Shown one piece after another: positions 3,249-54,656 of a stretch of DNA of 64,000 bases. This stretch comes from Fidelibacterota bacterium (GTDB lineage: Bacteria; Fidelibacterota; Marinisomatia; SCGC-AAA003-L08; TS1B11): assembly GCA_004124875.1 (NCBI GenBank), contig SCKJ01000003.1, positions 220,654-284,653 on the forward strand, given 5' to 3'. How positions within the stretch are numbered: the stretch's first letter is position 1; every line of letters begins with the position of its first letter. Made by a program: the position numbers and the translations under genes. The notes beneath the pieces are model-generated. The model worked only from the letters and a program-made list of their open reading frames with translations, had not been told where the DNA came from and searched no databases.

Positions 3249-3800
3249 ATGCCAACATCGATCGCTCCCCGGCAAATTCTTTCGACTGAGCGCCTCCTCA
3301 TCAGGGAGATGGAACTTTCCGACCTTGCGTTCATCGGCGAGATGCTCAACGATCCCACGGTAATGGCGCATTACCCCCGGAGCATCGTGGCGCAGGGACC
3401 GCACGCATGGCTGGAGAGGCAAATCAGGCGCTACGCGGATGACGGCCACGGCCTCTGGCTTGCTTTACGGGCGGATAATCTGGCCCCCGTTGGTCAGATA
3501 GGACTGACCCTGCAAGACGTGAACGGTGTGGCGGAAGTCGAGGTGGGGTATCTGCTGCACCGGTCCCATTGGGGCTGTGGCTATGCCACCGAAGGCGCCA
3601 GAGCTTGCGTAAAATACGGCATTGAAGAGTTGGGGCGAGATCGAATCGTCGCGCTGATCAGGGCCGAAAACTTACCTTCACAGGCAGTGGCGCGTCGTCT
3701 GGGCCTGGTGCGCGATGGCGAAACCGTGCAGGACGGACTGCCGCATCTAGTCTATGCCACTGCGCTGAGGCGCCCTTCAAACAGACAGCCCACCCTATAA
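3249..3800 (+). CDS. GNAT-family N-acetyltransferase (RimJ/RimL-like)
   Basis: Transfers an acetyl group from acetyl-CoA to an amine; the substrate cannot be told from sequence. The 183-residue protein begins with the usual RimJ/RimL first strand (ILSTERLLIREMELSDL). It carries the acetyl-CoA pyrophosphate loop in HWGCGYATEGARA near residues 112-124 and ends with the ENLPSQAVARRLGL segment typical of motif B. Length fits the family. It stands alone, with long gaps on both sides and no strong ribosome-binding site. It could acetylate a ribosomal protein N-terminus, an amino acid or a small molecule. Confidence 0.85.
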   Translation: MPTSIAPRQILSTERLLIREMELSDLAFIGEMLNDPTVMAHYPRSIVAQGPHAWLERQIRRYADDGHGLWLALRADNLAPVGQIGLTLQDVNGVAEVEVGYLLHRSHWGCGYATEGARACVKYGIEELGRDRIVALIRAENLPSQAVARRLGLVRDGETVQDGLPHLVYATALRRPSNRQPTL

Positions 3801-3911: not shown

Positions 3912-3945
3912 AAAAAGCCCCCCGGCGTCAGCTGGAGGGCTTTTC
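3912..3945 (-). terminator. Intrinsic terminator after the small ORF
   Basis: In the reverse direction AAAAGCCCTCC pairs with GGGGGGCTTTT around a 10-base loop (about 11 pairs including one T-G), followed by a T-rich tail (TTTTTATATT). The forward direction has a shorter T-run, so it may also stop leftover transcription from the GNAT gene. It lies about 20 bases after the stop codon of the small ORF. Confidence 0.75.
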
Positions 3946-3963
3946 ATTTCAGAATCTGGGCAG

Positions 3964-4026
3964 TTAGCGCGCCGTGGTGCCTGTTGTTGCACCGGCGGAG
4001 GCCACTGCCCAACTTATATTAGACAA
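3964..4026 (-). CDS. Candidate 20-residue small protein with a perfect ribosome-binding site
   Basis: A TTG start at 4026 lies 7 bases after AGGAGG, the optimal spacing. The frame runs 20 codons to TAA at 3966-3964, and a terminator follows. The product begins MSNISWAVAS and is rich in Ala, Thr and Gly with one Trp; there is no membrane segment or Cys. The same bases form a hairpin (GGGCAGT with ACTGCCC outside, GGTGC with GCACC inside), so the transcript could instead act as a structured RNA. No family is recognised. The ribosome site is far stronger than at other genes here, which favours translation. I infer a real small gene but cannot give a function. Confidence 0.45.
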   Translation of the reverse strand: MSNISWAVASAGATTGTTAR

Positions 4027-4027
4027 T

Positions 4028-4042
4028 GGATCACCTCCTTTC
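4028..4042 (-). promoter_or_regulatory. Full-length Shine-Dalgarno complementary to the 16S 3' end
   Basis: Reverse strand GAAAGGAGGTGATCC is complementary over 15 bases to the conserved bacterial 16S rRNA tail (GGATCACCTCCTTTC). It decides the TTG start at 4026. Most other genes in the window have weak or no Shine-Dalgarno, which makes this site exceptional. A chance occurrence upstream of an ORF at ideal spacing and before a terminator seems unlikely. Confidence 0.75.
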
Positions 4043-4232
4043 ACTTGTTAGTGGATGCGTTTCCGTCTGCAATTTAGGGCCGCAAAGACCGGGAGCAACA
4101 TCTATCATTATCGGTGCATAACAGCCGGGGTCGGAGAAGGAGAGATCGCGGACTGATATCACGAGGGCAGAGCCGGGCGGTTACCCGGCCGGACAATCAG
4201 AATGGTCCCGATGGGGTTGAGGTTGGGGCAAC

Positions 4233-4664
4233 CTAGAAAGCGGGACTGTAAGGCTCGATCTCCATGAAATTGGGTCCCAGCCTGAGAATGCGGAATGAGG
4301 CTAAATTGACTACGTCGCCATCCTCATTGAAGATATTGATAATGGAGGGATCATTGGGATTGGTCTGCCAGGTTCCACCGCGCATGTAGTGGGTGTCAAC
4401 GGCCGACAGTTCCAGCCAGGACACTTTTCCATCGGCGCTAAAAATGTATCGCTTCCGATACCAGCTGGCAGGAAATGTCTCTGCCGGCGCGGGCCTCAGA
4501 ATATCGGTGAGCGCACCGTTTTCCTCCTCCTCATATGAGTGATTCCACTCTTGGTAAAGGAACTGGAGGTCGGACTTATGGGTCGGAGTGTCGCCAAAAT
4601 CCTCGCATGCCGTGCCTGTAATGAGCAATAATGCCGCCGCATATTTCGGGCCAGAAATTCTCAT
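4233..4664 (-). CDS. Hypothetical lipoprotein, possibly lipocalin-like
   Basis: Starting at the ATG at 4664 gives about 143 residues with a short hydrophobic signal (AAALLLITGTAC) and a cysteine near residue 20 that could be lipidated, although TAC is a loose lipobox. An in-frame start at 4754 would add 30 residues with no signal features. The mature part has alternating polar/hydrophobic strands (YIFSADGKVSWLELS, GGTWQTNPNDPSIINIFNED) like small lipocalin-type proteins scoring stress or composition. No catalytic motif is seen. It is divergent from the dienelactone hydrolase. Function unknown. Confidence 0.6.
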   Translation of the reverse strand: MRISGPKYAAALLLITGTACEDFGDTPTHKSDLQFLYQEWNHSYEEEENGALTDILRPAPAETFPASWYRKRYIFSADGKVSWLELSAVDTHYMRGGTWQTNPNDPSIINIFNEDGDVVNLASFRILRLGPNFMEIEPYSPAF

Positions 4665-4871
4665 GGGGAGACAATTTATAGGATGGCGATTAAAATTCAA
4701 AGATTTATAGTGAAAATAAAAACGGGTAGTGTCCCAGATCACATTTCGGTTCACTTCAAATCACAGGGGCTGTGGATCGGCCTGTTGACCATAAAGGTTT
4801 GGATTCCGCCCGATGCTGCCATAATATGCGCGGCATCCGCGCGACGGAATGTCTGCACAAGTGAGGGGACA

Positions 4872-5729
4872 TTGGACCAGAACGTCATTGATCTCTACGA
4901 CCAGTACACCCACAGTTCCATGGGACGAATCGAATTTCTGAGGCGTCTGGCGAAACTGGCCGGAGGGGCGGCGGCGGCCAACGCCATGCTGCCGTTTATC
5001 GATGTCGATGAGGCCGGGCCGGGCCAGGTAACGGTGGACGAACCGGGCCTGATTTTGGAGCATACGGCGTTTGCGGGTCCCGATGGCGAGATTATGGCCT
5101 ATACCGCGCGCCCGGCGGACAACAAGCAGCGCGGCGGCGTGGTTGTTGTGCATGAGAACCGTGGACTGAACGCCCATATCGAGGATGTGGCCCGGCGCCT
5201 GGCCAAGGCGGGCTTCATCGCCCTGGCGCCTGACGCCCTTTCGCCGCTGGGGGGAACTCCCGGGGATCGCGACGAGGCGCGCTCCATGATCGGCGGTCTG
5301 GATCGTGCGGCCACGCTGAGGCTGTTCCTTGCCAGCCTGGATATGTTGCGGGACCACGCGCAGGGCAACGGAAAAGTGGGCTGTGTCGGCTTCTGCTGGG
5401 GCGGGGGCATGGTAAATCAACTTGCCGTTAACGACCCCAGGCTCAACGCTGCCGTCTCCTTTTATGGCCGGCAGGCCGATGCTGCCGATGTTCCCAATAT
5501 CAAGGCCAGGCTGATGCTGCACTACGCCGGGCTTGACCGGCGCATCAACGCCGGTATCGATGGCTACCGGGCGGCGCTGGACCAACATAAAATCGATTAC
5601 GATCTATTCATGTACGACGGGGCCAATCACGCTTTTCATAATGACACAGCGCCGACCCGCTACGATGAGGCCGCTGCCAAACTCGCCTGGAAACGGACGC
5701 TTGAACTGTTCGGCAAAACACTGCTGTAG
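4872..5729 (+). CDS. Dienelactone hydrolase family protein
   Basis: An alpha/beta hydrolase that opens lactone or ester bonds. The TTG start at 4872 follows GTGAGGGGAC and gives 285 residues, matching homologues that begin DQNVIDLYDxYTH. An in-frame ATG at 4683 would add 63 unrelated residues overlapping the divergent lipoprotein gene. A Tat-like leader (FLRRLAKLAGGAAAANA) suggests export, though the twin arginine is not in the classic position. The nucleophile is Cys175 in GFCWGGG, with Asp222 (AGLDRRI) and His253 (ANHAF) completing the Cys-Asp-His triad. The zinc protease lies 50 bases downstream and may be co-transcribed. Physiological substrate unknown. Confidence 0.88.
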   Translation: MDQNVIDLYDQYTHSSMGRIEFLRRLAKLAGGAAAANAMLPFIDVDEAGPGQVTVDEPGLILEHTAFAGPDGEIMAYTARPADNKQRGGVVVVHENRGLNAHIEDVARRLAKAGFIALAPDALSPLGGTPGDRDEARSMIGGLDRAATLRLFLASLDMLRDHAQGNGKVGCVGFCWGGGMVNQLAVNDPRLNAAVSFYGRQADAADVPNIKARLMLHYAGLDRRINAGIDGYRAALDQHKIDYDLFMYDGANHAFHNDTAPTRYDEAAAKLAWKRTLELFGKTLL

Positions 5730-12484: not shown

Positions 12485-12605
12485 GGGACTCGGGGAGGCA
12501 ATCCCAGTATTCAATCTTCAATCGTCAATTGATAATGCCCGGCAGTGAACGCCTCCCTCCCACCCTTCGAGAACCTCAGGGTGACTGAACTTGCCACTGC
12601 CACTG

Positions 12606-13289
12606 TTACAGCAGCCCCTGTTCCGCGAAGGAGAACAGGTCGTTGCCGCCGACTATCAGGTGGTCGTGGACCTGCACGTCAATGGTCTCGCAAGCCGCCT
12701 TCAGCCGTTTGGTGATGCTGATGTCGTCCTCACTGGGGGAGGGGTTTCCCGAGGGGTGATTGTGCACAAAAATGACGGCGGCGGCATCGTAGGCCAGCAC
12801 CAGCTTGATCACTTCCCGCGAATAGACGGCGCTGGTGGTGAGCGATCCTTCAAAGAGGACTTTCAGATCGATGACCTGATTCCGGCCGTTGAGCAGGATG
12901 ATCAGAAATTGCTCGCGGTTGCGGTTCTTCATGTGGTGCAGCAGATAATCGCGCACCATGCGGGCGGAGGTGGCGTAATCCTTGCCGATGATTTCTTCCC
13001 GCAGATAGCGGTCAGCGACGGCCTGCACCAGCTTGAGGCCGAACAGGTTTTTCTCGCCCACGCCGTTGATGGAGCGCAGCTGGTCATCCGCCGCTTCGAG
13101 GACGCCCCCCAGATTGCCGAAGCGCTTCAGCAGGGCCTTGGCGGTGGGCTTGTGGTCGGGCCGGGGGTCGGCCAGTTTCAGCAGCAGTTCGACCACCTCA
13201 TAATCGAGAAAACCTTCCAGGCCGCTGGTCAGAAAGCGTTCCCGCAAGCGCTGGTAATGTCCCCCTTTGGAATCCGGATTATCGGCCAC
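12606..13289 (-). CDS. radC: RadC-family JAB/MPN domain protein
   Basis: RadC-type protein with a C-terminal JAMM metal site; despite its historical name its biochemical role is unsettled. GTG at 13289 behind GGAG (spacing 5-6) gives 228 residues, the normal RadC length; an upstream ATG at 13397 would add 36 unusual residues overlapping the divergent gene. Residues about 15-100 form the helical UPF0758 N-terminal region with helix-hairpin-helix (SINGVGEKNLFGLKL). The JAMM motif is VHNHPSGNPSPSEDD, with an upstream LNGRNQVIDLK strand. It is divergent from the Pycsar-effector-like gene, 88 bases apart. RadC genes often accompany mobile or defence regions. Confidence 0.9.
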   Translation of the reverse strand: MADNPDSKGGHYQRLRERFLTSGLEGFLDYEVVELLLKLADPRPDHKPTAKALLKRFGNLGGVLEAADDQLRSINGVGEKNLFGLKLVQAVADRYLREEIIGKDYATSARMVRDYLLHHMKNRNREQFLIILLNGRNQVIDLKVLFEGSLTTSAVYSREVIKLVLAYDAAAVIFVHNHPSGNPSPSEDDISITKRLKAACETIDVQVHDHLIVGGNDLFSFAEQGLL

Positions 13290-53780: not shown

Positions 53781-54656
53781 CTAAAAGGTAAATGTCATTT
53801 CCAGCGCCGCTTGGGATAAGGGCTCAAGATCTATATCCGTACCTGCGCGGTATTCGAACAGGATCAAGGCGCCCTCCGCAATACTGAACGAGGGCGAGAT
53901 CGTAGTCGTGCCTGCCTTGCCCAGCTGATCCTGGCGGAAAGTGACGCCAAACCTTCCAGGTGTCCAATTCACCATAAGCAGATAGCCCAGCTCCCCGGGC
54001 CCGTACCCTCCCTGGTTGACCTCGAGTCCTATCGTGACCTTTTCCATGCGAGTAATGGTGGCGTCAAAATCGATAATATTCTCGCCATCTCCCTTGAAGA
54101 TAGCAGAAAGTCCGGCCTCCACGCCAGCTATCCCTTTGTAGCCCAATCTGCCACCCAAAATGGGGTTATCCCCCAGGTTTGGGCCAATATCGTCGCTGTT
54201 AACCACGTATCCGATGAATTGAATATCCTGGGTGAAATCCCTGCTGTAGCTTATTCCCGTCAGGTTTAACGGCAGCGCATAGTCAAATACCAGCGAGTGT
54301 GAAAACTGGTACATGTCAGGTGCATCGATCATTTCAAATCCGATGGGAGCGTTAAACTTGCCAAATGAGATTCCCCAGAATGAGACATAAGCCTGCTCGA
54401 GTTCAGCCGAATCGATCAGGATATCCACATCGACCCGGAGTGATATCCCTTCATCTATCTGTTTCTCAAGGTCTATCTCCGCAACATCAAGGCTGAATCG
54501 AGGATTGATCGGTGAGGTTGTAGGGATCGCGATACTGCCATCAACAAAGCCCGAAATTGTCACGGTCTGGCCACCAAGCGGCGATAAAAAAACCGATGAA
54601 GCCAACAAGGCTCTCCCCGAAGCGCAAAAACCTGATTTTATGTTGTCCCAATACAT
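53781..54656 (-). CDS. Outer-membrane porin-like barrel (BBP2/OmpL-type)
   Basis: 291 residues. Signal (SGRALLASSVFLSPLGGQT) followed by FVDGSIAIPTTSPIN and a run of amphipathic strands: FSLDVAEIDLEKQIDE, EQAYVSFWGISFGKFNAPIGFEMIDAP, SLVFDYALPLNLTGISYSRDF. It ends ALEMTFTF, an aromatic-ended last strand. The pattern EQAYVSF..GKFNAPIGFE is typical of the BBP2 putative porin family, which often sits by amt and glnB. It is 62 bases downstream of glnB on the same strand, so it may admit ammonium or another nitrogen source. The role is inferred from position. Confidence 0.75.
   Translation of the reverse strand: MYWDNIKSGFCASGRALLASSVFLSPLGGQTVTISGFVDGSIAIPTTSPINPRFSLDVAEIDLEKQIDEGISLRVDVDILIDSAELEQAYVSFWGISFGKFNAPIGFEMIDAPDMYQFSHSLVFDYALPLNLTGISYSRDFTQDIQFIGYVVNSDDIGPNLGDNPILGGRLGYKGIAGVEAGLSAIFKGDGENIIDFDATITRMEKVTIGLEVNQGGYGPGELGYLLMVNWTPGRFGVTFRQDQLGKAGTTTISPSFSIAEGALILFEYRAGTDIDLEPLSQAALEMTFTF

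Follow-up and report, generated by a model that had tools for sequence, protein, structure and literature searches.

A small RNA-like element with a complete 16S-tail complement and a drifting mini-ORF appears distantly related to the CC2171 sRNA

The window analyzed here is a 64,000-nt stretch of contig SCKJ01000003.1 from a Fidelibacterota bacterium, whose phylum we refer to as Marinisomatota, and it carries a compact element on its reverse strand. An A/C-rich leader, TAACAAGT (4043–4050, –), where the RF01867-like match described below (4050–3915) begins, runs into an extended Shine-Dalgarno (SD) sequence, GAAAGGAGGTGATCC (4042–4028, –). These 15 bases are the exact complement of the 16S rRNA 3′ end, read in a same-genus genome (G001, locus L075), confirming the complementarity that the first-pass annotation of this DNA had pointed out. 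Also as described there, a TTG (4026–4024, –) lies seven bases past AGGAGG, with one A between GAAAGGAGGTGATCC and the TTG, and opens a mini-ORF of 20 codons (3964–4026, –; peptide MSNISWAVASAGATTGTTAR) that ends in TAA (3966–3964, –). Within the mini-ORF, a CCTCC (3997–4001, –), placed 25 nt past the first base of the start codon, is able to pair with the GGAGG of the SD, and a hairpin spans the second half of the ORF (3957–4011, –), with an outer helix formed by 4011–4004 and 3964–3957 and an inner helix formed by 3997–3989 and 3980–3970 (both –). The last feature is a G+C-rich, terminator-like hairpin followed by a T-run (3912–3944, –). This hairpin is clear in the single-sequence fold of the element RNA (151 nt, −64.4 kcal/mol, z −5.3), and family relatives have it too, which supports the intrinsic terminator proposed earlier, but our pattern scanner reported neither a terminator nor a sigma-70-like promoter on the element; we think that an A·C mismatch in the stem caused the terminator to be missed. 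The first gene downstream of the element, of the GNAT family (3249–3800, +), is convergent. On the other side, 4872–5729 (+) encodes a protein of the dienelactone hydrolase family whose N-terminus gives a YqhI-like match, and next to it, at 4233–4754 (–), is a 173-aa ORF without a Pfam match.

The window holds a single exact copy of the 14-mer AAAGGAGGTGATCC, against an estimated expectation of ~0.0005; with up to three mismatches there are 6 matches compared with 5.9 by chance, so only the exact match is notable. Pairing of the element SD with the 16S tail is predicted at −28.5 kcal/mol. At the first starts of 38 large ORFs in the window, the median is −5.0 kcal/mol, the same as for random 20-mers (−5.0), with 9 of the 38 reaching −8 (random 17%) and 3 reaching −12 (random 2%). 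When the best start within the first 40 codons is taken, 18 of the 38 reach −8 and 7 reach −12, compared with 47% and 8% of random starts. The ordinary genes of the window show little overall SD signal and few strong SDs, none of them near −28, bearing out the earlier remark that few genes here have a strong SD. Given the little SD signal of this genome, hardly any RNA besides that of the element would exploit the 16S tail fully. A strong SD, rare among the window ORFs, precedes the ORF at 53784–54656 (–), which has AAAGAGGAGGTTTTTCAGGC before its ATG (−16.2 kcal/mol).

Among 171 genomes of the window's class, an SD-plus-TTG pattern was found in 33 (3 with the reversed control), one of which, G041 (L032), looks like a chance match because nothing past its TTG resembles the other loci. 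A covariance model, R1, built from 19 sequences and holding only 6 base pairs, is therefore mostly a sequence model; it identified a single locus per genome in 40 of the 171 genomes (E ≤ 0.01), its training sequences being counted among the matches. Four of the 11 genomes of the window's family had no R1 match (completeness 96, 82, 70 and 67%), and blastn against 60 relatives returned few family matches, the remainder being mostly noise. For class-wide motif and ORF statistics we used 39 of the 40 model loci (37 distinct sequences), finding CCTCC 25 nt past the first base of the start codon in all 37, ORFs of 14–16 codons with the window's 20 as the exception, and TAA, TAG and TGA stops in 30, 5 and 2 sequences, respectively. 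The window copy is without the stop that is present after codon 14 in its six family relatives. Variants of the SD in the class are all A-to-G changes, within a search that permitted just A or G at two sites and left the first three sites free; such changes can preserve G·U pairing with 16S, and the predicted pairing with the tail stays between −21.8 and −28.5 kcal/mol. In the same order, families f2 and f3 (L049–L058, L013) carry a divergent form with GGAGGTAATC, 16–18 codons and apparently more hairpins; their peptides include MNTMYLSNGYSLGVIL or MDIDKRSHNCTSGGLF, and two genomes (G040 and G036) have two matches each.

Because the 15-mer is identical to the antisense strand of the 16S end, it might have arisen by chance or be the remnant of a 16S gene in antisense orientation. 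Outside the 15-mer, however, no resemblance to 16S was seen, and TTGTCTA and CCTCC, which lie past it, are conserved in the model matches of 40 of the 171 genomes. Because conserved sequence continues beyond the 15 bases in this way, we reject this origin and give it a negligible probability.

Similar elements are found beyond the phylum. A stricter 21-base pattern returned 72 stretches in named genomes, where by our estimate about one is expected by chance, and these span Alphaproteobacteria, Gemmatimonadota, Nitrospinota, Neomarinimicrobiota, Eisenbacteria, a Myxococcales bacterium and others; at least two of them (L116 and L125) look like chance. An SD+NTG pattern, in which the first base of the start codon was left free, matched 94 of 385 genomes in Alphaproteobacteria (reversed control, 2 genomes), 35 of 200 in Gemmatimonadota (1), 23 of 60 in Nitrospinota (1) and 16 of 112 in Myxococcota (2), some of the matches being ordinary genes, as with five ORFs of more than 50 codons in the fetched set. 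Matching genomes mostly have one match, and a few have two or three. An AAC lies no more than 14 nt upstream in 95 of 109 non-redundant sequences, compared with 27 in shuffles. A phage origin was considered and set aside, a TTGTCT-containing pattern having given no match in viral contigs.

Comparison of the gene neighbors of 35 and 72 loci revealed no family recurring across phyla, and the next gene in the window is convergent, both of which argue against a cis-acting leader or attenuator of a neighboring gene. The ORF does have the size of a leader peptide and is combined with a hairpin and a terminator, weak matches to Rfam amino-acid leaders occur at a single locus (L033), and 20 Rhodobiaceae/PS1-type loci (e.g., L150, L121 and L134) share a same-strand gene 126–213 nt downstream, judged by eye to encode a sugar-kinase-like protein. 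Because of this common gene, the element may not stand alone at those 20 loci, and co-transcription is possible there; as a general account, we consider attenuation very improbable.

The hairpin across the second half of the ORF is well supported in the window's family, where 88.7% of cells are paired over seven sequences and 8 of 19 pairs have changed on both sides, compared with 3.4 in shuffles (0 of 500 reach the observed value) and 2–3 in slid controls; in the other 17 class sequences it says little because the outer helix is nearly invariant. The first-pass annotation had looked to close relatives for conservation of the peptide or of the structure, and the structure is both conserved and covarying. 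A different fold was obtained from the window RNA by itself, whose minimum free energy structure pairs GGAGG of the SD with CCUCC and does not contain the ORF hairpin, and RNAalifold on a gappy 19-sequence alignment kept only this SD:CCUCC pairing. Because the two folds use overlapping bases, we propose that the element may switch between them. SD-complementary segments downstream of the SD beat dinucleotide shuffles at p < 0.05 in 27 of the 109 non-redundant sequences and at p < 0.5 in 89, and we give the combined p-value no weight because the sequences are related. Most Gemmatimonadota members and several f3 members have no CCUCC, so no single motif accounts for masking throughout; with 27 sequences below p = 0.05, universal CCUCC masking found partial support and was not retained. 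Masking of the SD is convincing in the class and plausible in the GATCGCC-bearing Gemmatimonadota types and the GCCTC-bearing alphaproteobacterial members.

To describe the start and stop signals, we used 94 distinct loci from 98 fetched alphaproteobacterial and Gemmatimonadota pattern matches. Start codons, whose first base was free in the pattern, are ATG in 38, GTG in 31, TTG in 25 and CTG in none; 80 of the 94 have TCN (serine) as codon 2; and the stops are TGA in 47, TAA in 26 and TAG in 21, with the stop position kept within a few codons inside lineages. Among Gemmatimonadota-type elements, 22 distinct ORFs selected by peptide motif and a length of 20 codons (other members have 17 or 21) end in TGA (8), TAA (7) or TAG (7). 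As in a small-protein gene, start and stop are conserved here and the SD is properly spaced; together with the conserved serine 2, this would fit a gene for a highly expressed peptide of 14–36 residues. The peptides, however, are unrelated between lineages. Using Nei-Gojobori counts on sequence pairs of 70–98.5% identity, we obtained N/S of 1.35 for the class (34 distinct ORFs, 175 pairs, class loci alone), with 1.19 and 0.62 in the shifted frames, and 1.07 for the Gemmatimonadota type (22 sequences, 108 pairs). Smaller groups gave 0.99 (MSHC-type Alphaproteobacteria, only 3 pairs), 0.75 (the window's family alone, 8 pairs), 0.69 (the alphaproteobacterial EQP group, 20 pairs) and 0.51 (family f3, 4 pairs), on a measure that is coarse because shifted frames scatter from 0.35 to 3.6. 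Purifying selection on the peptide was not seen in the class, though N/S is below one in the window's family; the two well-sampled groups, the class and the Gemmatimonadota type, argue against a peptide function, and the small groups leave room for weak peptide constraint in some lineages. We regard a small-protein gene as distinctly improbable, and the suggestion that the ORF encodes a highly expressed small protein finds no support, with peptides that vary by lineage and an N/S of 1.35 in the class, despite the kept start, serine and stop. The start and stop signals persist in several phyla and the peptide drifts, which suggests that ribosome loading matters and the protein does not. What the data show looks like selection for a ribosome that docks with its whole 16S tail, starts and soon stops, with little regard to the peptide made.

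At gathering scores, Rfam identified one tRNA in the window and nothing else; a 92-nt tRNA-Glu(ttc) called by ARAGORN at 12571–12662 (–) scores below the Rfam tRNA gathering score and may be a false call or an unusual tRNA. In E-value mode, the element matched RF01867, the Caulobacter sRNA CC2171, at 42.8 bits, short of the gathering score of 75, over the full length of the model (1–159 of 159; E 1.3e-7) and as the sole match in the 3.0-Mb genome. CC2171 was reportedly first described by Landt et al. in 2008. The RF01867 consensus opens with cAAcaAucGAAAGGAGGUGAUCCAGUGUCUCAU, that is, with a leader, 16S complement, start codon and serine codon as in the window element, which aligns with its 5′ block AACAA..GAAAGGAGGUGAUCCANUGUCU, and both close in a terminator-like hairpin. 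They differ in the middle of the RNA, where the central consensus pairs give way in the window to many non-standard pairs and deletions and a separate covarying hairpin is found in the window's family. They differ also in description: Rfam gives RF01867 the type 'Gene; sRNA', and the match output marks no ORF, whereas the window element has a mini-ORF.

Across the class, 23 of 171 genomes matched RF01867 at E ≤ 0.1, with none over the cut-off. Four of 14 control genomes matched, and the one over the cut-off is taken to be Caulobacter, the top entry of the list; the weaker control matches, in Synechococcus, Deinobacterium and Thermotoga, are perhaps chance. Seven of 20 alphaproteobacterial loci exceeded 75 bits, 4 of 6 Nitrospinota loci matched (best 41.1 bits, E 2.5e-5) and so did the one Eisenbacteria locus searched (28 bits, E 0.04); matches at 2 of 5 Gemmatimonadota-type loci (26 bits, E above 0.1) are at chance level, and none of 6 Myxococcota loci matched. 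Judged by these alignments, the window element appears to be a distant relative of the CC2171 sRNA. Common descent of the alphaproteobacterial and Marinisomatota forms is well supported and is likely to extend to the Nitrospinota form; for the forms of the remaining phyla, convergence on a perfect SD is possible.

The consensus of another catalogued sRNA, Ms_IGR-5 of Actinobacteria (RF02471), opens with ACACAaGGAAGGAgGugGuCc, also an extended SD. The Eisenbacteria element (L181, 1370–1525, –) matched this family at 34.9 bits (whole-genome E 4.3e-6), and a further match was found at L354 (1495–1745, +), the match being strong only for L181. Of 16 genomes searched, the Eisenbacteria genome was the one that matched RF02471 at its element, none of the 16 passed the 45-bit cut-off, and the best match in the window genome (14.6 bits) lies at another place than the element. 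With a convincing match in the Eisenbacteria element only, Ms_IGR-5 was rejected as a general member, and its resemblance to the element is no more than a lead.

In the open-licence literature, we found no description of a perfect-SD mini-ORF class and no stated function for CC2171; since this literature alone was covered, absence from print is weak evidence. CC2171 goes unmentioned in passages from a paper on the Caulobacter transcriptome (PMC4117421) and from one on Sinorhizobium small proteins (PMC10117765), and a passage of a further paper lists the sRNA MH_s33 of Mesorhizobium huakuii under RF01867 (PMC5596092). Passages on Flavobacterium johnsoniae describe autoregulation of bS21 through rpsU by ribosomes with a free anti-SD and report that ribosomes without bS21 favor a strong-SD mRNA (PMC9976891). 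As portrayed there, rpsU resembles the element in being a single exceptionally strong-SD mRNA in a genome that hardly uses SDs. It differs in that it encodes bS21, whereas here the rpsU SD is weak (−4.9 kcal/mol) and the strong SD precedes an ORF whose peptide is unconstrained. Autoregulation of the bS21 type in cis was rejected for the window element, rpsU being located elsewhere and having that weak SD.

Rfam's filing of the relative as an sRNA and the element's own terminator-like hairpin would suit a conventional trans-acting sRNA with a C-rich CCUCC anti-SD seed, in which translation of the mini-ORF would just gate exposure of the seed or protect the RNA from decay. CCUCC is invariant in the class and lies partly in an internal loop of the covarying family f1 hairpin, as would befit such a seed. 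However, it is not common to all lineages that have the SD and the ORF, the window genome has few strong-SD genes to serve as targets, and the most conserved part of the element is the 16S complement and not CCUCC. We consider a trans-acting sRNA of this kind unlikely, if still credible.

Our preferred reading, held tentatively and at a little under even probability, is a mini-mRNA-like sRNA that captures ribosomes through full pairing with the 16S tail, makes a throwaway peptide and titrates or senses ribosomes. On sequence grounds, the element has a defined anatomy, a conserved start, stop, 16S complement and hairpin, and seemingly no peptide constraint in the class. It would be a gene for a small RNA, ending in a terminator of its own, and would act as a mini-mRNA that yields no meaningful protein. 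The leader and the 15-base complement would capture 30S subunits more tightly than do the ordinary mRNAs of this SD-poor genome, and the ribosome would begin at UUG, read 14–20 codons into the hairpin and halt there. The CCUCC of the ORF and the 16S tail would compete for the ribosome-binding site, producing masked and ribosome-loaded states. Loading would then be the function itself, in that it may tie up, or report on, subunits with a free 3′ tail. Transcription at this locus, actual translation, switching and a downstream effect are what we infer in this model. The first-pass annotation had offered an RNA that titrates ribosomes through its anti-16S complement; the conservation pattern fits engagement of ribosomes, and titration would be one possible consequence.

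More speculatively, CC2171 and the uncatalogued elements of Marinisomatota, Gemmatimonadota, Nitrospinota, Myxococcota and Eisenbacteria, possibly with Ms_IGR-5, could constitute one broad, usually single-copy class that gauges or buffers ribosomes with a free 16S tail via a peptide-indifferent, self-masking mini-ORF, an idea that we think possible but doubtful. A catalogued sRNA would then appear as the visible part of a wider class. The most conserved features of such a class would be those of translation initiation and termination, with the peptide drifting, which points to translation itself as the signal. If true, the class would provide a handle, separable by genetics, on free 30S subunits or anti-SD access.

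Other RNA genes and elements lie close to two of the loci. The Eisenbacteria element (L181, 1370–1527, –) is directly upstream of a same-strand FMN riboswitch (1189–1329, –), and at an alphaproteobacterial locus (L282) a CC2171-like RNA (299–443, –) is located ~100 bases upstream of a same-strand small SRP RNA gene (104–200, –).
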